DNA of 64,000 nucleotides from Siphonodentalium dalli (Eukaryota; Mollusca; Scaphopoda; Gadilida; Siphonodentaliidae). The DNA lies in NCBI GenBank assembly GCA_032622095.1, contig CP136066.1, positions 173,413,164 through 173,477,163 on the forward strand. Direction: 5' to 3'. The translations under genes were made by a program, and so were the position numbers. Under the pieces are notes generated by a model. That model saw only the letters and a program-made list of their open reading frames with translations, was not told the DNA's origin and ran no database searches. Below are positions 1,406-63,124 of the stretch, piece by piece. Position 1 is the stretch's first letter. Each line of letters begins with the position of its first letter.

Positions 1406-2202
1406 TTGTTTTACAGACTTTTATGTTATTTCGTATGAACCCACTTCTCACAGATAGTTTACTTACCCATAATGGATGGTTCACAATTTTCCTCCATGTT
1501 TTACAAACTTTGCCTACCCTAAAATGTAGGAAATAATGAGTTCAGAAGTTAATGAAATTTTTTCTGGAGATTTTCCAACAGCAAGGTGGTTTCGAGTTGA
1601 TGAGTATCACGCATTCAAAATAGCCGAGGCGATTGCAAAAGCGGCCAGAAACTAGAAAAAAGGTAATAAACTAGGATAATGATATATTACATAGTATTTT
1701 GGCAGCTACGAGAATATGTTATACTATTTTTCAAACAAGCTGATACCTCATGCATGTCCAAACTCACAGTTGTTTGCTCTAACATTCTGACCGAAGTTGT
1801 CAGTCAAATATTTCTCCTAGATGTATGGACGTGTGTATTCCACGAACCTCTGATTGGCAACTTTGGTCAGAAAGGTATAGAAAACTACTGAGTATTTCTA
1901 AAACAAATAAGGTATCAACATGTTCTAAAAAATAAACTAGCATATGCTCGTAACAGTCAAATTGCTATGTTTTTGTATCAGTTTCTCATATATTATGTTT
2001 TTGTGCGTTTGCACATTTTGAATGTGTGGTACTCCCCAACCTTGAAACCACATCATTTCCAACCGTGAACAGAAAGAAATGAGAATAAAAATTACCCTCA
2101 AGAGTGTCAAAAAAAAATTTTGCCCTGAAATTTTTAAGAAGTAATTTCTGATTGCAAAATAATTGACGACAATAGTTCCCTATTTTCCCCTAGTTATGTT
2201 AT
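1406..2202. other. Noncoding stretch with one very short ORF
   Basis: Probably intronic to, or beyond, the minus-strand gene. The only coding-like signal is a 39-codon plus-strand frame at 1536-1655 (starts MSSEVNEIF, ends IAKAARN). It has no visible partner and could be chance or a transposon scrap. A short segment near 1409-1436 recurs near 62598-62630, so part of the region is dispersed repeat. Confidence 0.4.
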
Positions 2203-2384: not shown

Positions 2385-2836
2385 ATTTTCTAATATATTT
2401 CCAACTAAATACCAACCTAATCAAATCTATAATGTCCAAATACTCAAATATCTTACAACTAAATACCAACCTAATCAGATCTATTGTGTCCAAATACTTG
2501 AATATCTTCCAACTAAAATCCAACCTACTCAGAACTATAGTGTCCAAATACTTGAATATCTTAAAACTAAAATCCAACCTAATCAGATCTATAGTGTCCA
2601 AATACTTGAATATCTTCCAACTAAATACCAACCTACTCAGATCTATCGTGTCCAAATACTCGAATATCTTCTGACTAAATACCAACCTAATCAGATCTAT
2701 AGTGTCCAAATTCTCAAATATCTTCCAACTAAATACCAACCTACTCAGATCTATCGTGTCCAAATACTCGAATATCTTCTGACTAAATACCAACCTAATC
2801 AGATCTATAGTGTCCAAATATTCGAATATCTTCCAC
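2385..2836 (-). repeat. 54-bp minisatellite over an exon end
   Basis: Eight copies of a 54-bp unit lie head to tail with an exact period; the words ATATCTT at 2448, 2502 and onward to 2826 are 54 apart. On the minus strand each unit encodes KIFEYLDTIDLIRLVFS-like residues, so 18 codons per unit keep the frame open through all copies. Each unit also carries the likely splice donor of the exon, GGTTG|GTATTT. Exon-end positions would be 2791, 2737, 2683, 2629, 2575, 2521, 2467 and 2413. The GT is changed to GA in the copies at 2575 and 2521. Confidence 0.9.
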
Positions 2837-3927
2837 AGAGTGTCATATCCTCCATAAAGATTCTTAAAATAACACACTGAAGGATCAATTCCTGCTTTCC
2901 GTTTTCGGACTTTCTTTAGAATGTCAGTTTTTGAAGGTTTATCGGCATTGCTACTACCACATGTACAGCTCCCGTCAGAAGAACCAGGAGTGCTTGGTGG
3001 TTTTGAAGAGTCCTTCATTGGCGATGTCACAGGAAACGTAGCAGCAGGAACAAAAACTTTGAGTCCCTCCCCCGTCTGGAAGAAACACGATGGAGGAATA
3101 GTCACTGTACTGTTTTGAATTTTTAACGATAAAGGTTGATTAAGGTTGAGTCTTTTGATGACGGCTGCAGGCAATGTTAGAAGCTGTCCATCCTTAACAT
3201 TTTGGAAATTTCCTGACGCCAAAGACGACGATGTATTTGATGTGATGGGCGTTTGTGGAGTCGCTGGCGATGCAGTTGGGGATCTCAGTAACGGTGGAGG
3301 TGGAGGTGATAGCACTCCTGATAATGATGAAATAGATGCGTTAGATAATCCATCAGATTGTTTAACTGTAGTTATGAGACCTGGAGCATGCAGAAGTCTC
3401 GGAGGCGGCGGCTGATTGTTCATAAGCGGAGGTTGACTATTCAAAGGAATGTTTGAAACAACTTTAGGTACGTTCAGGCTGAACGGAGGAGGAGGTTGGC
3501 TCACCAAAGGCTGCCGTAAATGAATGCCAGATCCGACCAATGGAATTGGCATCATGTTGCCTCCAATCCCAGGTGGAGGTCCGACGGGTTGGAATTTGAA
3601 AGCACCATTTGCCTGTAACATACTTTGTATGGTTGAAGAATTCGCAGTCGTTGTTTGAAGTCCTTTTGGAGTCACTCGAAACACATGAACTTGTTTGGGA
3701 CTTCCTTCTCTGGACTGGTTCTGGTTTACGGCGGAGACGCCTGATTTTTGTTCTTTCCCCGATTGTTCATCGGGCTCTTTTTTCATGTTCTCCAGAACCG
3801 ATGATATTTCTGCACCGATGGTTTCTGGGTCAAACATCGCAGCTTCTTCGATGGGAGATGATGGAGGTTCCTCGTCAATTTTATCTTCATCAGAACCGCC
3901 ATCAGAAACATCATCTCTTTTACAGCG
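2791..3927 (-). CDS. Gene 1 exon: proline-rich region and F-box-like start
   Basis: This is the fifth main coding exon of the minus-strand gene. The acceptor is a pyrimidine run ending in AACAG just before 3927, entered in phase 0. The first codons (RCKRDD) supply the last zinc cysteine of the PHD finger begun in exon 9185-9050. An acidic stretch follows, then proline-rich low complexity (PPPP, SPTASPATPQ). A block that looks conserved comes next (LTLPAAVIKRLNLNQPL ... VPPxCFFQTGEGLKVFVP-like, about 3240-3030). The end is CYFKNLYGGYDTLWKIFEYL, which resembles the first helices of an F-box. The frame stays open to 2203, but the most natural end is the donor at 2791. The rest of an F-box is missing here and should lie left of the window. 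Function is inferred as chromatin or ubiquitin-ligase adaptor; the protein is not identified. Confidence 0.7.
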
Positions 3928-4434
3928 CTGTTGTAAGAAATCAAGAGGAGATATTTAACGGACATGGCTCATTTTGAACCCTAAACTTATGTATACATAA
4001 CTTGGTAAGAGGTATCTCAAAACATACATACGTGGAAGATTTTGGAATAAATTTGGCGATATAGTGCAGAAAACACTTGTTTCTTAAATTTTTCAATAAA
4101 TATGAGATCTTTTCGTTTGTGACAGTTAAATTGTTTTAGTTGGTGATCGGGTAAAAATTGCAACTGTAGTAGGCATGAGAGATACGGATCTGGATATGTA
4201 TCCCAAAACAAGGTTCACGATATAAATATGTATCAGTATATCTCAGGTAAATATGCAGGGCCTAGATAAATATGTGCTTCTGCTATGGAGCCTTGTTTCG
4301 GGATGGTTGGTACCTGTTGGTTAGGAAATAATTTCTTCATATTTTTAAAGTATTTTCTAAACCTCACATTGTTAGTCGCACAGTAGTTAACTTGTCAGTT
4401 GTCACTGTAATCTATCCATTTCTTTTGTAGTATC

Positions 4435-4895
4435 CTTTTCTAACTCGGTTTGTTCAACTATGTTAAGTAAATATATTTGTTATTCCCGATGACACTTGCT
4501 TCGCTTGACAAATGGAAATGTGGTTTACCGTCAAGACAAATTTGACAAATGAGGTTCAGTCTTTTAGCGAAGTCCAGACACACGTAGTACATAACTTTTG
4601 GAATTCGGCCAAGCAAGGACACCATGTATTTTTGGGCAGGTTTGAAGCTCTAATTCTATACAATTGGTTTTAACCAATCACAGTGAGTGGTTTCTTCTAG
4701 ACGAGAAGAGGGCGGTATCTTCGCTCATTTATTATTTTGATTGATGGTACATGTGCATCATTGTGCTGAAGGAAGAGGCGGGGCATAACTGACAATCATA
4801 TCGATCTATCACCTGATCAATCGTCGATTCATTTTGGTAGCATTTACGAAGAAAAAAAACGTTGCATTGACCGTATAACCAGGAAGTAAAGGAAT
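4435..4895 (-). repeat. Fragment of hAT family present at 56408-58515
   Basis: The sequence aligns by eye, in reverse orientation and with only scattered differences, to 57745-58155. Landmarks are TCTAGACGAGAAGAGGGCGG near 4697 and ATGTGGTTTACCGTCAAG near 4520. No terminal repeats or target duplication are visible at this copy, so it is a partial relic. Confidence 0.75.
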
Positions 4896-5566
4896 AATCT
4901 ATTCGTGGAATGACCTCATAGGCATGTGTCCCTTCGATTAAGTTCCTGCCTTCCTGAGTTAACCACAACATTAGAGCGAATTACAGGCTTACGGAGTCCG
5001 GATGACTGCCGTGATTACCAATGGAGACACCAGCGCGTGGACAATAGCTCGCGCATACAAACAATTACGGAACATTTGTTAATGAACCATTGAATACGCG
5101 AACAAGAGAATCCTAATGAATCATTGAACAAGATGGACCATGAGCAGTCATTCAACAATTTATTGGTCTAAATGAAGCCCCAAAATACAACCGTCGCAGT
5201 CAAAGTGTCTCATGTCATTGATAAGAAGATAAGAGAATGGGACGAGAAGAAATCAGAGTGACCGAGAAAAGTGACTTCTAATCAACTGTCCACTAAAGTA
5301 GTCAACAGGTGGTTGCAAGCCTTGAGATTCAATGAGAACCACCAAAACTATTCTCGTAATGATTCTCGCGAAACTTTTCAAAGTTCAGTGCTGTATGACT
5401 AACTTGATTCAGCATTTGATGCTCACAAAAGTAAATGTATTTGGAGCCTGGCGTTGATATGTTTCACGGTTTCAATAAGACTTTCCATTTCCAACCTGAC
5501 GATATTCAATATGTTGAAATACCGGCCAGCTCCAAAGTTAAACCCAACTGAGAAATCACAGGAAAC

Positions 5567-7440
5567 ATGCACCGTGATTGTGGCACCAGCCCAAAACCAG
5601 CAGAAAACAGATGGCAGGTTGGATTAGTAAAATACAGAGACCCAGGCGCAGTGCGCCCCCAACCATTCTTGCTCTTCTGGCTGACCCCCGACGGGTGGAC
5701 GGTTCAAGGTACCCCTTCTGGAACGGATGGGGTGCCCCTCCGATTGCACCTTGTTCTTGAGATAACCACCGCCCGAAGCGCGAATCTAGTGGGTGGATCA
5801 TATGATCTGGCATCCTACACCCAATGCTAGTGAATATCACGCACGAGGGGAAGCATCTGGCAAGGATCTTCTTCAGTCTGTATGAAGTGTGCACAACGTT
5901 ATTAATATGTTGCCCCATAGACGCAACATTATCCTGCAGTGGTGATCTCAGAGGTCAGCAATGGACCTTGCCTTGTATATTAAATGAGACCACTATGCGA
6001 ACCAAGCACTGTCAGGAAAAAACAAAACCATTGCGTACCGACAACAGTGCCAATAAGAAGAATTACGAATTAGAACCAAAGGCCGATATCACAGAAGACT
6101 GACGCGCTGTGTCGCCCATTAAGCCCGAGCGGGATGGCTGATATAGACCTCACTTCAACTGCCGAGACCATGTCACAAAATCATGTAATTAAATCCCATA
6201 GTCGTCCCAACATGCTGATCACGTATAACTTCCTGATTATGAGAATGTGCATTGCATTGAGTAATGTGAATCGTGATGAGAGGAAATCAGTTGCGTTCTG
6301 AAGATGAGCATATGTCTAGTATGTATAATGGACTCATATATATTATTATCTACGAAACTGAATTTTAATTAGAATTGAATGCAACCTGCAGATAAAAATA
6401 TGCGGATGCACCCTCGTAAAATATATAACCCACATGTACCAAGATATTTTTTATACCTATTTATGGGTATTTATTTGTCAACCATAGGTGGTATGAAAGT
6501 CAAGAATATTAACGGTCGCGATTCATATAGTGACCCAGTGTATCATTACCGCCCTTAGTGATATGACTGACCCATCATCCAAAGAATATTCCTGAAGACT
6601 ATCGACACAGGCGACACTCTATTCCAGCAATGACCATGACCTCGCAGGAGCTGGATGGCACATTGAAAGAAGTAACAACTTATAAAGCAAGGAGTTGAAC
6701 AATAAAATCCGAGAACAATAAAACTTTTGCATACCTCTCAGCTGGGTCGATCCCATGTCGCCAAGTTTGCAGTCCGATGGCATAACCACTCAGCTACGGC
6801 GACGCTTGTCTGCATCAGAGAACCCCGAACAACGAACTGAGTTCCCTCATGAGCGCATATATGGGTGACCCCAAAGGAATGTCCAAAGCCTTTTCACCTC
6901 GGGCTGGAGCTACAGCTCGTCCCGATCCCGATATCCATCCGTCCGAACTGGCGATGGTTTGTTAGGAGGGGCAGGGTCCTAAGCATGCCTCCTACTAGAA
7001 CGGCATCGGGGAACATAAATTTTTGTATTAGGGTTCAAACCCGAAAGTACTGGCTGCTGTTGATCAGAAGGTGGTCAGTAACTGAAATTCCAGGCCCACG
7101 GACATGGAGTTGGCCAACAAGGAGGAAGCATGATTGGGAATTTCGGGCACCAGCCCAAACCCAGCAGGGACCGAAGGCATATAGGATTATAATATGGACA
7201 GGGCAAACCCCCAGCCATGCTGACCCAGAGATGTCGACTTGTAGCGATGGACGGCATAGTGCGAGTGTTAGTAGCGCAGAAAACAGCCGTACCTGGGCAC
7301 GCCAACCCGCCAACGGACGACCCGAGGGTACAAATTGGCGTCCCGTACGATAGTCCAGGGAGCCCACCAATTGTGGCCGGATGGGGTGCCCCTCCCGCTC
7401 CCTGTTTGGTGTGACTATCACCCCCGAGTCGCAAAGAAGG
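5567..7440. repeat. Two diverged repeat blocks
   Basis: Blocks at 5567-5840 and 7140-7440 share GCACCAGCCCAAA.CCAGCAG near their left sides and GGATGGGGTGCCCCTCC near their right sides, in the same orientation. Both hold modest open frames on both strands (for example 6865-7353 plus and 7075-7434 minus). The proteins resemble nothing I recognise and are rich in W, P and R, as expected from GC-rich noncoding DNA. I do not call genes here. Confidence 0.45.
6738..6806 (-). repeat. tRNA-derived SINE head or tRNA pseudogene
   Basis: On the minus strand there is an A-box-like TAGCTGAGTGG (6796-6786), then a B-box-like GGGATCGACCC (6754-6744). Their starts are 42 nt apart, close to normal tRNA spacing. 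GTCGCCGTAGCTGAGTGG resembles the 5' half of a tRNA. The anticodon arm pairs poorly and the B box deviates from GGTTCGANTCC, so this is a SINE promoter or decayed tRNA copy, not a working tRNA. Confidence 0.55.
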
Positions 7441-7667
7441 TATTTTAGTGTGATTGCACTGTCAACACCATTCAAGTCTTTTTGACAATTGCTAACAATC
7501 AAAATTACACCTGTTGATTTGTGTTATGTTGATAAGCACCTTGGCTGTGGCAACTAACGGCAATAAGCTAATCGATTGTATTGACGAATAACCCTGGTTT
7601 GCACTAAATAATTTTTTTTTTTAACATAATATTATTAAGTTGAAATTTTTTTTTAACAAGTGCAAAT

Positions 7668-8460
7668 TTACTGCTTCCGTCAGTTGGACACCAGACGACG
7701 ACTCTCATACATGTAGTATAAATAAACCTTGTAGCGACAAAGCCGTCAAACAGCCGAAAGTAAGTCAACTAATTTTGTGATACCGTTATCGCACAGGCCG
7801 GAGCATGTGGCACCTTCGCTTGGACCATAGAATAAATTGCACATGTATGCAATAGATTCTTGCTATAAAGATGAGCGTATTTAGTCGTATCCAAATGTGC
7901 ATATAGTATTCTGCCTCTCGGCGACAAATATTATGCCAATTTTTTTTTTATCGGCTTATTAAATATATGGAAAACAAAATTGCTTTAAAACAAAATGAGT
8001 TTCCATACAAAGCCGGGATATATTGCATATCCTTACAATCCGATGTTACAAGAGTTAAATACTGCTTCCAGTCAGTTGTACACCAGACTACGACTGTCAT
8101 AGTATAAAAAAATATATATTGTAGCTACAATTTACAAGGCCGTCAGACAGCCGAAAGTAAGTCACCTAATGTCATGATACCGTTACTATACAAGCCGTAG
8201 TACGTGGCACTCGCTTAGACCATAGAATAAGTCGCACATGTATGCAATAGATTCTTGCTATAAAGAACCTATGAGCGTCTTTAGTCATATCCAAATGTGC
8301 ATCTATTATTCGTCCGTTCGGCGACAAATATTATATAAAGATGCCCTCTTTTATCGGCTGTTTAAAAATATGGACAATTTTTTTTTTCCGTTAAAACGAA
8401 ACGAGTTGGCCACAAGAACTGACAAGCCGATTACGATAATAAAAACGCTATAGAAACGCG
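7668..8460. repeat. About 390-bp tandem duplication
   Basis: Two adjacent direct copies (about 7668-8043 and 8058-8460) share in order CTGCTTCC.GTCAGTTG, CAGCCGAAAGTAAGTCA, CACATGTATGCAATAGATTC and GGCGACAAATATTAT. Differences are scattered, so the duplication is not recent. No long frame is shared by both copies, and the function is unknown. Confidence 0.75.
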
Positions 8461-9049: not shown

Positions 9050-9185
9050 CAAACACCTGAAGTTCTCAGGAATATCATACACATTGACACACCTCGAGTG
9101 GAACAGGCACATACACATTTTACATTGCAGTGAAGGAGCTTCGTTCTCCATTCCAGGACAATTAACTGTACACAGTTGAGGCAAC
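9050..9185 (-). CDS. Gene 1 exon: PHD finger
   Basis: A 136-nt exon with acceptor GCTTTGTTTCAG before 9185 and donor TTG|GTATGT after 9050, entered in phase 2 and left in phase 0. It encodes LPQLCTVNCPGMENEAP, SLQCKMCMCLFHSRC and ENFRCL. With RC from exon 3927 this gives the PHD pattern C-x3-C ... C-x2-C, H-x2-C, C-x2-C. PHD fingers commonly read histone H3 tails, so a chromatin role is likely for the gene. The exact completion of the last C-x2-C pair across the intron is strong evidence for the splice. The frame runs on past the donor to 8984, but that extension would replace the second cysteine environment and is probably intronic. Confidence 0.82.
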
Positions 9186-11985: not shown

Positions 11986-12535
11986 TTTGATGGCGATACT
12001 TGCAAGTCAGTATCATCATGCTTCTTGAACTTGGCCTGGGTTGTACTTTTCTTTGCAACCATCCTATTATAATATTTTGGGAAATAACGTCCACTCAGCG
12101 ATGTACTTTTTCTGGCCACCATTTTCTTCTTTATTTTATCCAGTGTGCTTCCTTCTTCTACCTGCCTCTTCTTGGATGGCTGTAGCATCGATTCGGAATC
12201 AAGAATGGAATCTGACAACCGCTTCGGCACCGATCTGACTCTCGGAGGCCTCGCGACAACAAGAGACTCTCCTTCTCTTTTGATTTTAATCTTTGTCGAA
12301 AAAGCCTTTGTTGAAAAGTCTGTTTCCTGCCCATTATTTTCAATGACAATCTGAGGTTTCTCTCTTGGAGGACGTCCAATTCTTTTCGGTGACTTGGTTG
12401 CCTTCGGAGTTTTACTTGCGCGCGATCCAGCACCGCCCCTACCAGCCTGTCGTACTATTTCAAATGGGGCGCTTGATATTGCTCTTCTGGCAAATGAAAA
12501 ATTTGCTTCTGTGAGTGGTGATTTGTGGTCTCTCA
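11986..12535 (-). CDS. Gene 1 exon: basic, AT-hook-like region
   Basis: A 550-nt exon with a long pyrimidine acceptor (TTTTTTCAG, 12536 side) and strong donor CAAA|GTAAGT. It encodes RDHKSPLTEANFSFARRA, then GRGGAGSR, the AT-hook-like RIGRPPREKP, and long Lys/Arg/Ser-rich stretches ending KKHDDTDLQVSPSK. AT-hooks bind the minor groove of AT-rich DNA, in keeping with the PHD finger encoded by the next exon. The exon fits phase 1 if joined directly to exon 17026-16970. If the microexon at 13464-13491 is included, the in-frame acceptor would be four bases further in, after CAGTGAG. Flanking MITEs lie just beyond both splice sites. Confidence 0.78.
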
Positions 12536-14699: not shown

Positions 14700-16258
14700 G
14701 TAGGTCCACATTGAAGATTTCATATGGAAAGCATCCTTGGAAATGGCTATCAGTAGATTACTTTGATCACACAATAGTGTTATTTTAGAAATGGGCATGT
14801 TATAATTAGTGAGATTTTATTGCCAAAAACATCGCAAATCGAAATGGTACGCATTGAAACAGAAAATTATCTGTTTGCAAACTTCCTGGTAAAGGTTATT
14901 AAAAAATACATATTTGGCCCGCAATGAACTTGATTCTTGAACACCCGGACAATTAAGAAATAATTTATGTATCCACAGAAAAAGAATGCCACATCGGCAC
15001 GTTGTTTTTAGGCGAATAAAGTAACAACAGGTGAGCTTCAATTTCAAACCACTGATGATTCAACGTATTTTAATGATCACGGTACGAACAGTAATATCAG
15101 GACATGATTCATATGAAGTTTGGTGATGATCGAATGAGTGATGTGGTCTGTTGGGTGTGCCAAAGGATTAAGTCATGCAAAGAGTAAAATCCTTGCTTTT
15201 AATCGAAAATAGTTCAAATTCGATAGCTACCATCTGGAGGTCATTCAGGAGGGCATGTTTTCCAATGAAATTCAACAAAAATTTATAGCTCCATGTGGTC
15301 ACCTCGAAGATCAATATGAAGTTTGGTGACAAACTGATGAGGGATATGGTCTGTAGGATGTGCCAAAGGATTTAGTCATGCAAACAAAATTTGAAAAAAT
15401 TTGACGGTTCCAATTTAGTGCCAGGCCGAAGATCCATATGAAGTTTGGTGATGATCGGATGAGAGATGTGACCTGTAGGGTGTACAAACAGAAATTGTTG
15501 ATGGACGGACGGACCCGCGGACAGATGGCAACCCATGGCAATAGCTCAAACTTGACTTTGTCAAGTTGAGCTAATAAACTTGACTGAAAAATGAAGGAAT
15601 ACAACTCACACAAAGTTGTGTCAACCGACAGACAAGCTGATTCCAGTATACCCCTCCCCTATAACTTTGTTACAGGGAGGTATAATCAAATTGGCAAGGT
15701 TCATGGTACATCAGGCACAGGAACATTATAGGTTGCATTAAAAACATTGATATTAGTCGCGAAATCTGCCAAATAATTGGCTATTGGTTCCTGACTGCAT
15801 TGACTATCTGTTCAACATTGACTCTGGGTATCAAATGAGTTTGGAAAATTTAAAAATGTACATGTTTTTGGCTGTTTAATTCAAATCGGTGAGAAGATAT
15901 GAGAAGATCACACCTTGTTGTCATGGACTGGTGACAACTTGAGCCCTCATTATTACACAATACCTACATTGGCATGTTCACTATTTTCGTGTCCATGTGG
16001 GAGGTGGTATTATAAATTGCATGGCCAGGTAGAAATTCCCGATATTACACAATATCTACATTGGTGTCATACTCACTATTTTTGAGCCATGAGGTGGGTG
16101 GTAGTATACATCACACGGTCTTGCCTTCTTAGTACCGCCAGATCCTATCTCATTGAACACACCACGATGGACTAGTTCTCTGGTCCAACCTAAAATTATT
16201 CATGAATAAATCATAATTTAACAAGATGTCAATGCACACAACACTGATACGCGAGTGG
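14700..16258. repeat. Intron with family D-like dispersed repeat
   Basis: From about 15090 to 15690 the word ATATGAAGTTTGGTGA is repeated three times (near 15113, 15315 and 15437) together with GATGTGGTCTGT and GTGCCAAAGGATT.AGTCATG. The right end, GACGGACGGACCCGCGGACA followed by CCCCTATAACTTTGTTACAG and a GGTATAAT tail, matches the tail structure of family D copies (31712, 43207). The sequence outside those limits shows nothing recognisable. Confidence 0.6.
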
Positions 16259-21720: not shown

Positions 21721-22734
21721 GATTTCTCTTTCTCGAGGGACTTCCAAGAGTATCATCATCATCGTCATCATCCATCGTCTGATTCATGCTGTCATTTACA
21801 GTAGTGTTAACGCTGTCATTGATGCTGTCATCCACAGTTGTGTTTACGCTATCATTTATGCTGTCATTTACAGTTGTGTCGATGCTGGCGTTAACACTCA
21901 CGTCCATGCTATCATTTACTGTAGTGTCCATGCTCTCATTAACATCCTCATTATCAGATATCGCTCTGTCGTTGTCATTATCTTTTTCTTCGCCATCATC
22001 CCGTACAGATTTATCAAACTGGCGTTCCATACCTTCATCAGCAGATTCGGTTGCAGCTAATTTTGCAACATCTAAGTTATCCAAAGAAAAACTTGATGAT
22101 TCAACAGGTTCAACTTTAATTTTTGTTGGAGTATCATGAGATATAACGAGTCCTGGCTCATCATCGTTATCATCACTTCCAACATCCTCACTCCTAGTTT
22201 TTGAAAATGCAGACTGTTCGCCATTTTCATCAACATTACTTTCTTTTTCAGAATTATTTTCTTCCTCCCCATTCTTTTCCTTTTGCTTCACAGCAGAAAT
22301 GTCCTCGAGATTCAAATCCGCTGTATCCGTGTCCTCATCGAGATTAGATTTATCATTTGAATTCACTGAATCCGTTTCTCTTTCAGATACGTCCATTGCT
22401 TCGTCAGCAGCAGCATCACTCTCAACAGAATTTGTTCGGGAGACTTCGTCACCTTCTTGAAAAGTAACAGCTTTTTCAGCTGAGTCACCTCCATCTTTAG
22501 ATGATGAATCCATTTCGTTTAGATTTTCAACAGAGTCTGATTTCTCAGTCAAAGGCACATTTGTAGGGACAGGCATTTGTTCATTGAACGTAGTTGGTTC
22601 TGAATTTGCCTCTGTTGTCTCTGGTTCTAACGTCGGCTGCGTTGTCTCTGGTTCTAACGTCGGCTGCGTTGTCTCTGGTTCTAACGTCGGCTGCGTTGTC
22701 TCTTGTTCTGAAGTTGGCTGTGTCACTTCTGGTT
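21721..22734 (-). CDS. Gene 1 exon: acidic repetitive region
   Basis: A 1014-nt exon with acceptor AACTTCAG before 22734 and donor AATC|GTGAGT after 21721, entered and left in phase 1. It starts EPEVTQPTSEQETTQ, then three TTQPTLEPE copies (27-bp tandem, 22612-22700), an acidic Ser/Glu/Asp-rich middle (for example EDISAVKQKEKNGEE), and a run of T[TV]NDS[MI] and SINDSVNTTV repeats before DDDDDDDT and the basic SPSRKRN. It has no globular domain and is predicted disordered and nuclear. Repeat-driven length variation between individuals is likely. Splicing to exon 17026 is in phase. Confidence 0.78.
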
Positions 22735-22815
22735 CTGAAGTTGATTTAAAACAATATTTATTGACATCAATTACAGTTCAATAATACAGAGTTTGAATTA
22801 AAGTTTTTAGAGATG

Positions 22816-26609: not shown

Positions 26610-28910
26610 AACTAGAGGTGTGACTGTCACAATGGGACTAAGGTAGCAATACACGATTTCCAGCAATTTTGCTAACCTGGGAGGGGGTACTGTATCTTTG
26701 GCATAGGTCCCATCAAGCATGTTTTAATTTCGACAGAAATTTTAGGTTTAATCATTTGTCTGTACTTTAGCTTCTTCGTACAATTTGTAATTGAGTTATG
26801 CCCTTTGGTTTGCACACACAAAACGCTCAATTTTACCCATTTTTCACTCAAATTGACATTTTCAACCCAAAAACAGACCATGATAGAGCGAATGTCAGTA
26901 AATAAGCTTCTTCCACCTGATAGAGCTATGTTAGAGCTGAGAAATATTTGAAATAGAAAAAAAGTTATCGTATCAATTTGAAAAAAATGTCTTGCGAGCC
27001 CAGATGACAGAATTCAGGGGAGAGAAATCGTGCTATTTTCCTGTAACCAATAACACAGAGTTGGCCTTCACTGAATATGAAAACCCTGTTGCATATCCAA
27101 ATTTTTCACATTTTTGAGAACTTTCCCAGTTTTGTCAAATAAATAAACCTTCAAACCAGTAATAACACAGTTAACACAGGCTTCACTGGCTGTTATGCCC
27201 CCCAGATACTTATTTTTCTATTTTTCAGACCCCCTACAACCCGTGAAATTGTGTACTGCTACCTTAGTATACCCCGTGTTTTTAAAACACCAAGATGTTT
27301 CACATGTCAGTAAACATTAAGTTAAATTAATAAAATAACAGATTCCTATTGCAGGTGCACAACTCTAACCCCTAACTCTAAACCTATTGACTGAAAAATG
27401 TAGGAATAAAAGCTCAGACAAAATTCTGCATGTTGCGAAAATGTTCTGTCGAAAAATGGGAATAACTCCACACACAAAAAAGTCGGATTGCAAAAAAAAA
27501 TGTCTAAGTAAAAAAGGGTGATAACTCCACCAAAAAAAGTCAGACAGACATCATAATCATAGGTACACAGGTACTAAATATCTGTGCCAAGTTTAAAAAA
27601 AATTGACCAAAAAATGTATGAATAAAAGCTCGGACAAAATTACCGGTACACACATGTACATGTTGCGAAATTTTTGTTAGCATGAGGTCCTTATTATTAA
27701 AAGCTCGGACAAAACTATACATGTTGCGAAATTATCAGTCTATTAAGGGGGATAACTCCACAAAAAAAGTCTGACAGATGTCATAATCACACGTGCACAG
27801 GTTCCTATGGTGGTTGATGTCTGTACCAAGTTTCACGGAAAATGATTAAAAAACTAAGAACAAGGGTACGCATCTTAAGATGCTTTTGTCAAGTTTTTTG
27901 GCAGTCGAACCAAACTTCTGCCAATAAGGTGCACAACCCCTGGGAAAAAAAGTTGGACGTTGGTATATTATTGCAATAGACCTATATACCAAATATCAAT
28001 TGAATCCGTTAATATTTCATTGAGTTATCGCACGAACGGTGATAAAATTGTGATTAAATTAGACAAACTGAGACCCATAAGTTGGCCATAACTCCGGATT
28101 TTTTTTCCGGACAAACCAGGTTTTCGAACTCGTCAAAGATATTGTTGCAATAGACTCATATACCAAATATTGTTTAAATCGGTTAATATTTCATCGAGTT
28201 ATCGCGCTAACAGTGATAAAATTGCTAAAAATAGACAAACTAAGACCCATAACTCCGCGAAAAAAATTTGGACAAACCTGGTTTACGAACTCGTCAGAGA
28301 TATTGTTGTAGGAGACTCATATACCAAATATTGTTGAAATTGGTTAATATTGTTAATATTTCATCGAGTTATCGCGTTAATGGTGATAAAATTGCTAAAA
28401 ATAGACAAACTAAGACCCATAATTCAGCGAATTTTTTTTGGACAAACCTGTTTTTCGAACTCGTCCGAGATATTGTTGTAGGAGACTCATATACCAAATA
28501 TTGTTGAAATCGATTAATATTTCATCGAGTTATCGCGCTATCGGTGATAAAATTGCTAAAAATAGACAAACTAAGACCCATAACTCCGCGAAAAAAATTT
28601 GGACAAACCTGGTTTTCGAACTCGTCCGAGATATTGTTGCAAGAGTCTCATATACCAAATATTGTTGAAATTGGTTAATATTTTGGGAGCAACTGCCATA
28701 CCAAATTTTTTTTGAATCCGTTCACAAATGTCAAAGTTATAAGGCATTCTTTAGGGCCGCCCGCCAACCGTCCCTTGCCAAACCATAAGTCGAGTTTTTG
28801 AAAAACTCGACTAAAAACTCGAGAATTTTTGTTATCCAGACGGACGAACCGATAATCTTATTTCACTATACCCCCCCCCCCCCAACTTTGTTGCAGGGGG
28901 TATAATAACC
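26610..28910. repeat. Family D dispersed repeat with internal tandem array
   Basis: Starts with AGAGGTGTGACTGTCACAATG and ends GGGGGTATAATAA after a 14-C run at 28867. Shared inner words are GGGGATAACTCCAC, GTCATAATC, GTGCACAGGTTCC and AAGCTCGGACAAAA. From about 28060 to 28690 a unit of 160-170 bp is repeated four times (TAGACAAACTAAGACCC near 28061, 28232, 28402 and 28562). Related complete copies lie at 31712-32460 and 43207-43806. No coding capacity; the transposition mechanism is unknown. Confidence 0.75.
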
Positions 28911-31711: not shown

Positions 31712-32460
31712 TTAGAGGTAGGTGTGACTGTCCCAATGGGACTACGGATACCCCCCTGTTTTTAAAATACTAAGATGTTTCACATGTCAGTAAACATTTA
31801 GTTAAAATAATAAATTAACAGTTCCCATTGCAGGTGTACAACCATAACCCTAATCTTAAACCTATTGACCGAAAAATGTAGGAATAAAAGCTTGGACAAA
31901 ATTATGTCGAATAACTCCACACAAAAAATGTCGGACAGACGTCATAATCGCAGGTGCACAGGTTCCCATGGTACTAAATAACAGTGCCAAGATTAAAAAA
32001 CATTGACCGAAAAATGTAGGAATAAAAGCTCGGACAAAAGTATACATGTTGCGAAAAAAGTTTCTAAGTCGAAAAAGGGGGATAACTCCAGCAAAAAATG
32101 TCGGACAGACGTCATAATCGCAGGTGCACAAGTTCCCATGGTACTAAATATCTGTGCCACGTTTTAAAACAATTGACCAAACAATGTAGGAATAATAGTT
32201 CGGACAAAAGTATACATGTTGTGAAAATTTTCTAAGTCGAAAAAGGGGGGATAACTCCACCAAAAAAAGTCTGACAAACGTCATAATCGCAGGTGCACAG
32301 GTTCCCATGGTGGTTGATGTCTGTGCCAAGTTTCACGGAAATTGATCAAAAAACGACTGAGAAAAACTCCGGACAAATTTGTGTCCACGGACGGACGGAC
32401 GGACGGACAAGCTGACTCCAGTATACCCCCCACTAACTTCGTTGCGGGGGGTATAATAAA
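31712..32460. repeat. Family D repeat, fairly complete copy
   Basis: Begins TTAGAGGTAGGTGTGACTGTC, followed by AAGATGTTTCACATGTCAGT, repeated blocks of GGGGATAACTCCA, CGGACAGACGTCATAATCGC and CAGGTTCCCATGG, then CGGACGGACGGACGGACAAG and a GGGGGGTATAATA tail. The tail can pair with TATACCCCCC just before it. Same layout, reversed, at 43207-43806. Confidence 0.75.
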
Positions 32461-43206: not shown

Positions 43207-43806
43207 TTTTATACCCCTCGCAACGAAGTTGTGGGGGGTAAACTGGAATCAGCTTGTCCGTCCGTCCATCCGTTGACTGTGGAACAAATTTGTCCGGAGT
43301 TTTTCTCAGTCGTTTTTTGATAATTTCCCTGAAACTTGGCACAGACATCGGCGACCATGGGAACCTGTGCACCTGCGATTATGACGTCTGTCAGACATTT
43401 TTTTGTGGAGTTATCCCCCTTTTTCGACAGAACATTTTCGCAACATGTTTAATTTTGTCCGAGCTTTTATTCCTACATTTTTTAGTCAATTTTCTTTAAA
43501 CTTGGCAAATATATTTAGTACAATGGGTACCTGTCCACCTACGATTATGAAATCTGTCCGACTTGTTTTTGTGGAGTTATTCCCCTTTTTCGACTTTGAA
43601 CATTTTCGCAACTTGCATAATTTTGTCCGAGCTTTTATTCCTATATGTTTCAGTCAATATGTTTAGGATTAGGGTTAGGGCTTAAGGTTGTGCACCTGCA
43701 ATTGGAATCTGTTATTTTATTATTTTAACTAAATGTTTACTGACATGTGAAACATCATAGTGTTTTAAAAACACGGGGGTATCCTTAGACCCATTGGGAC
43801 AGTCAC
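43207..43806 (-). repeat. Family D repeat, reverse copy
   Basis: Reverse orientation relative to 31712-32460. Begins TTTTTATACCCCTCGCAACG, contains CCGTCCGTCC and three blocks with GGAGTTAT.CCCCTTTTTCGA, and ends GGGACAGTCACACCTCTAG. No coding. Confidence 0.78.
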
Positions 43807-62870: not shown

Positions 62871-63124
62871 CAAGCCTTGAAATAGTGTGTCTGTCATTTG
62901 CAGAATGAGGTCCCCAGAGGGTGAATTTAGTGATGCTACCCCTCATAGCGAGCTAGCATCACCAAATTCACCCTCTGGGGACCTCATTCTGCTTACACCT
63001 CAGCAGAATGAGGTCCCCAGATGGTGAATTTAGTGATGCTAGCCCGCTATGCGGGATAGCATCACTAAATTCACCCTCTGGGGACCTCATTCTGCAAATG
63101 ACAGACACACTATTTCAAGGCTTG
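62871..63124. mobile_element. Four-armed foldback MITE family A
   Basis: CAAGCCTTGAAATAGTGTG and CACTATTTCAAGGCTTG ends with two A/A' hairpins between, as at 1146-1397. Flanks ATCTCCGT and ATCTCACT match at 6 of 8 positions. Confidence 0.85.

Follow-up and report, generated by a model that had tools for sequence, protein, structure and literature searches.

This work describes a 54-bp tandem array in a stretch of 64,000 nucleotides (hereafter, the window) from the scaphopod mollusc Siphonodentalium dalli (NCBI GenBank assembly GCA_032622095.1, contig CP136066.1, positions 173,413,164 to 173,477,163 of the forward strand). The array sits at the 3' end of a coding exon of a predicted F-box gene, which is read from the minus strand and extends beyond the window. 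Based on the predicted gene structure, we show that an existing 5' splice site has been amplified in tandem together with its flanks, which give each 54-bp unit 38 nt of exon end and 16 nt of intron start if the first donor is used. As judged from the sequence, the unit carries the first (N-terminal) half of an F-box and the donor that goes with it, and the next exon completes the domain. In principle, use of any of the eight donors would result in a single complete F-box behind 0 to 7 additional 18-residue half-boxes. Positions are counted from the first letter of the window, negative positions lie to its left, and a slash marks an exon/intron border. The features that carry the argument are the following:

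2832 to 2401, minus strand: eight exact 54-bp units, free of indels and in register with the minus-strand reading frame
about 2398-2337, minus strand: degenerate ninth copy with an irregular start, a one-base gap relative to the unit and AG/GT lost
2795..3927, minus strand: array coding exon up to donor 1; starts in phase 0 after tttcttacaacag and ends in phase 2
2794..2795, minus strand: candidate donor 1, TTAG/GTTGGT, last exon base 2795; phase 2, completes the F-box
2416..2741, minus strand: candidate donors 2-8, last exon bases 2741, 2687, 2633, 2579, 2525, 2471 and 2417; AG/GT intact and phase 2 in 7/7
1467..1518, minus strand: next exon, 52 nt, VGKVCKTWRKIVNHPLW; second half of the F-box, ttttag acceptor, phase-2 start
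at -2191: exon after 1518-1467, contributing WRTVNLHN

Tandem Repeats Finder (TRF) reports the array at 2395-2835 with 8.2 copies, 88% matches, 0% indels and a score of 686. A first-pass annotation, made from the letters of this DNA alone, had counted eight exact-period copies of 54 bp with a frame that stays open through all of them. Both the TRF result and the eight indel-free units bear this out, the open frame for the minus strand over eight copies. Any pair of units has 45 to 54 of 54 bases in common; copy 4 repeats copy 2 without a change, and 3/54 bases separate copy 1 from copy 3. The ninth copy was recognised by a local alignment score of 51, whereas 500 single-base shuffles reached 33 at most. 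In the 2.2-Gb genome the array was matched once, by itself, in a search that gives a lower bound for repeats. No retrocopies showing the spliced form were found, and the array exon has one genome match (38/38 candidates scored).

The donor was assigned based on phase, reading frame and predicted pairing with U1. Exon 1518-1467, which itself ends in a GTAAGT donor (TTATGG/GTAAGT), opens with one codon-completing base and needs an array exon that ends in phase 2. AG/GT is a phase-2 donor and the period is 54 bp; therefore, splicing from any of the eight donors to the next exon would be in frame, and AG/GTTGG followed by T or A is intact, with the frame kept into the next exon, in 8/8 copies. The donors of copies 5 and 6 (GTTGGA) are weaker. 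U1 pairing of AG/GTTGGTAT was computed as -8.5 kcal/mol in six copies and -5.5 in copies 5 and 6. Among eight further donors of this gene, picked by eye and with slightly different flank lengths, values range from -5.6 to -11.9, and seven are weaker than -8.5. The first-pass annotation had placed the donor at GGTTG/GTATTT (2412..2791, minus strand; exon end 2791 in copy 1). This candidate was rejected, as it ends in phase 0, its joins read LGRQSL and then stop in 8/8 cases, and its U1 pairing is weak (-4.2, and -1.5 in copies 5 and 6, which lack the GT there). AG/GT, 4 nt upstream, fits by phase, stop and U1 pairing, and is preferred because it is the only one of the two compared sites that gives phase 2. 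The count of intact GTATTT motifs was correct (six copies, with GATTT in two), but the usable donors number eight instead of six, with AG/GT intact in 8/8, and the first exon end to consider is 2795 instead of 2791.

The F-box is completed at each of these junctions. The Pfam cut-offs are 24.3 bits for F-box-like (PF12937) and 20.5 bits for F-box (PF00646). Single halves stay below the former: the repeat unit scores 14.2 bits, the copy-1 exon end 18.0 bits, and exon 1518-1467 with the following WRTVNLHN alone 23.9 bits. In contrast, all eight joins exceed it (48.7, 46.0, 43.0, 46.0, 46.3, 40.1, 46.9 and 46.2 bits for donors 1-8, respectively). The donor-1 join is the highest; it also exceeds the F-box cut-off (40.4 bits) and aligns through the junction with the solved chains of FBXL3 (E 0.0024) and FBXW8 (E 0.0069). 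Since single halves fail and joins pass, the unit is taken as the first F-box half with its donor. The statement on scores below the cut-off is limited to single halves because the whole array, before any join to the next exon, scores above both cut-offs too, as a sum over half matches (41.1 vs 20.5 bits and 39.6 vs 24.3 bits). The earlier description of the unit as an F-box-like helix with a donor rightly combined part of an F-box with a splice site, and understated what would be the N-terminal half of a real F-box. Its proposal of 18-residue additions through donor choice likewise stands in that eight in-frame joins are possible, although the donor it named was the wrong one.

The open frame was rejected as proof of coding, as a plus-strand frame is likewise open across the array (2368-2880), two plus-strand frames of the consensus unit are free of stops, and just 8/162 single substitutions in the unit create one. 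The copies are separated by at least 19 changes, and the variable columns fall on codon positions 1, 2 and 3 in numbers of 4, 5 and 5. Six changes are synonymous in a hand count from the alignment columns that treats changes in codons 15 and 18 as non-synonymous. The synonymous expectation is 30/154 non-stop substitutions, which gives P = 0.15 for 6 or more of 19. The copies vary much like neutral sequence, with no clear sign of constraint, and mild constraint is still compatible with the data. An AlphaFold model of the array from a single sequence, which is a weak test, has a mean pLDDT (predicted local distance difference test) of 37.9 and supports no fold.

The closest precedent is found in intron 7 of the human factor VII gene (F7), in which each 37-bp repeat unit carries a 5' splice site. 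According to the available text, oriented scanning operates on these repeats and the most upstream donor is normally the only one used (PMC6627357). The S. dalli array is alike in having several candidate donors in a tandem repeat at an exon end: its first unit lies at the exon end, and the donor dinucleotide is present in 8/8 regular copies and lost in the ninth. Unlike the 37-bp period of F7, which is not a multiple of three, the 54-bp period is in frame and each join would complete an F-box; leakage to later donors would cost no frame, 54 being divisible by three. Tandem duplication of an AGGT-bearing exon segment as a source of new introns, the Rogers model, is described in the accessible parts of PMC4974935 and PMC3629103 for SPOG_01682, SOCG_00815 and vertebrate ATP2A1, with the fission-yeast site (SPOG_01682, SOCG_00815) given as AGGT in PMC4974935 and as AGGC in the original PMC3629103. 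As far as these parts go, the cases share with the present array the tandem units with AG/GT or a proto-splice site, but they concern new introns inside exons, whereas here it is the donor of an existing intron that has been multiplied. The available account of prawn Rlec lectins reports coding minisatellite units of 30/33 bp together with alternative splicing (PMC7536079). These in-frame repeat units within a coding region are comparable to ours, but, unlike here, that account does not place donors inside the repeat unit.

We lean, by a little, towards the explanation that the first donor (exon end 2795) is mainly used and that the later copies are mostly intronic spares. The array probably originated from a single duplication of the exon/intron boundary, followed by unequal exchange or slippage. 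A recent step of 108 bp (two units) within the array is suggested by the identity of copies 2 and 4 and the near-identity of copies 1 and 3 (3 differences). Donor 1 would be dominant and produce an F-box of normal length, copies 2 to 8 would mostly be intronic and provide spare donors, and a low-level leak would lead to isoforms longer by 18 residues per copy. First-donor use is favored because of the factor VII precedent, the lack of clear coding constraint and the worn copy at the intronic end. Longer isoforms could plausibly make up a minority, because regulators can shift the use of neighboring donors, which, in the accessible part of PMC5585400, is described in both directions.

A number of points weigh against mainly first-donor use. 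The donor, the frame and the F-box score are kept in 8/8 copies, as would also be expected from selection or from the youth of the array. The synonymous tendency is towards more changes than expected, and the constraint test has low power with 54 bp and eight copies. Other phase-2 GTs occur in the stretch, such as A/GTATTT in six copies, with pairing of -3.4 to -4.7. Competing donors are often resolved to the intron-proximal site, which would favor copy 8. Finally, oriented scanning was described in mammals, while the host here is a mollusc.

Appreciable use of several donors, resulting in isoforms that carry between 0 and 7 additional half-F-box blocks of 18 residues ahead of the complete F-box, is the less probable outcome in our judgment, though one to be taken seriously; copy number and donor choice would then tune F-box distance or folding. 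The equal phase of all eight donors, the equal U1 pairing of six, the 8/8 joins above the Pfam F-box cut-off and the absence of stops and indels from eight copies agree with such use. However, variation among the copies shows no clear departure from neutral, and the F-box helix carries an I-to-S change in copies 2, 4 and 6 and a D-to-V change in copy 6, the copy with the lowest score. The mean pLDDT of 37.9 (no fold) and the single donor used in factor VII also count against it. That the minisatellite sets the length of a ubiquitin-ligase adaptor in the manner of a dial, with the F-box behind 0 to 7 blocks and copy number setting the isoforms of each individual, strikes us as doubtful. Main use of the intron-proximal copy 8 (exon end 2417), by which the whole array would be coding and 126 extra residues would precede the F-box, is improbable. 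The frame is open to copy 8, donor 8 equals donor 1 in U1 pairing and its F-box scores 46.2 bits; yet synonymous changes are not in excess beyond chance, the stretch has no predicted fold (in the same weak, single-sequence test) and the best F-box is that of the donor-1 join. It is very improbable that the exon is silent or that the array is removed by splicing in another way, such as introns between copies with a phase-2 TTTAG. Each copy does contain both a GT and an AG, but open exons with proper signals run from 9185 to about -28.5 kb and the F-box junction is clean.

The array exon is held by a minus-strand open frame at 3954-2203. Additional predicted parts of the gene are the following:

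about -18.3, -19.5, -20.6, -26.3 and -28.2 kb: leucine-rich exons, the last of which ends in a stop; the gene reaches to about -28.5 kb
9050..9185, minus strand: upstream exon with a PHD-like finger; ends in phase 0 (TTG/GTATGT), 5' end uncertain
11986..12535, minus strand: probable upstream coding exon, basic, with AT-hook-like GRPPREK; open frame, ttttcag, AAA/GTAAGT
16077..16189, minus strand: probable upstream exon with likeness, by eye, to the first half of a methyl-CpG-binding domain

Intermediate exons between those found may have been overlooked. The leucine-rich exons were recognised by eye; the leucine-rich repeat (LRR) models stay below their cut-off (LRR_14 14.5 bits, cut-off 40). 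The join of 9185-9050 with 3927 reads FRCLRCKRDD and supplies the last cysteines of the PHD-like finger. The cysteine pattern at this join is only suggestive of a PHD finger, and the Pfam cut-off was missed after the join (PHD_5 18.4/27 bits; PHD 16.4/24 bits). Exon 11986-12535 matched no Pfam family; its GRPPREK motif we take to be AT-hook-like. For the methyl-CpG-binding domain, no Pfam family was matched by the joined piece, from which one exon may be absent. A candidate start ATG was spotted by eye at about 26461. Two more coding-frame minisatellites, at 22614-22741 and 21782-21944, have units of 27 bp and 36/24 bp, all multiples of three, and lie in the minus-strand open frame 22777-21704, possibly an upstream exon of the F-box gene. 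The order of an F-box followed by exons that look leucine-rich by eye resembles that of F-box/LRR proteins such as FBXL3 and KDM2A/B, and in sequence searches the donor-1 join matches FBXL3 at E = 0.0024 and KDM2A/B at 0.39-0.69. Unlike in KDM2A/B and the like, JmjC and CXXC gave no Pfam match in the minus-strand stretches scanned, which lie outside 3955-8000, the part right of 28000 and L005.

Another F-box/LRR open frame lies left of the window:

L002:1853-2428, equal to -6147 to -5572, minus strand: dispersed F-box/LRR open frame with at least 62 genome matches (150/847 candidates scored)

Among the candidates scored, 14 matches, itself included, reach at least 83% identity over at least 141/181 residues. 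Around the frame, alignable DNA of the seven compared relatives extends over most or all of 3.5 kb at an identity of about 91-97%. The frame was considered as the last exon of the F-box gene, for which its phase fits, but was rejected as it belongs to a dispersed family with alike flanks. Because of the at least 62 matches and the flanks alike in the relatives, L002 is taken as a repeat element inside a later intron, and a mobile or amplified element thus carries an F-box gene. An inverted-repeat element with a 103-bp period (GCAGAATGAGGTCCCC...) occurs at 1175-1370 and again at 62900-63095, perhaps a small transposon. Arrays with a period of 161-170 bp are located at 28109-28683, 31911-32353 and 43357-43658; by eye, the latter two contain a related unit on opposite strands.

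The open-licence literature, as partly searched, contained no description of this locus or of a donor array that is entirely in phase and completes a domain. Donor-carrying repeats and AGGT-bearing tandem duplications are already known; new here would be that all donors are in phase and that each completes a folded domain. Eight near-identical donors of the same phase, spaced by 54 nt, represent a natural experiment on 5' splice-site choice outside mammals. If several of these donors are used, a tandem repeat would change a folded domain while the frame stays intact throughout.
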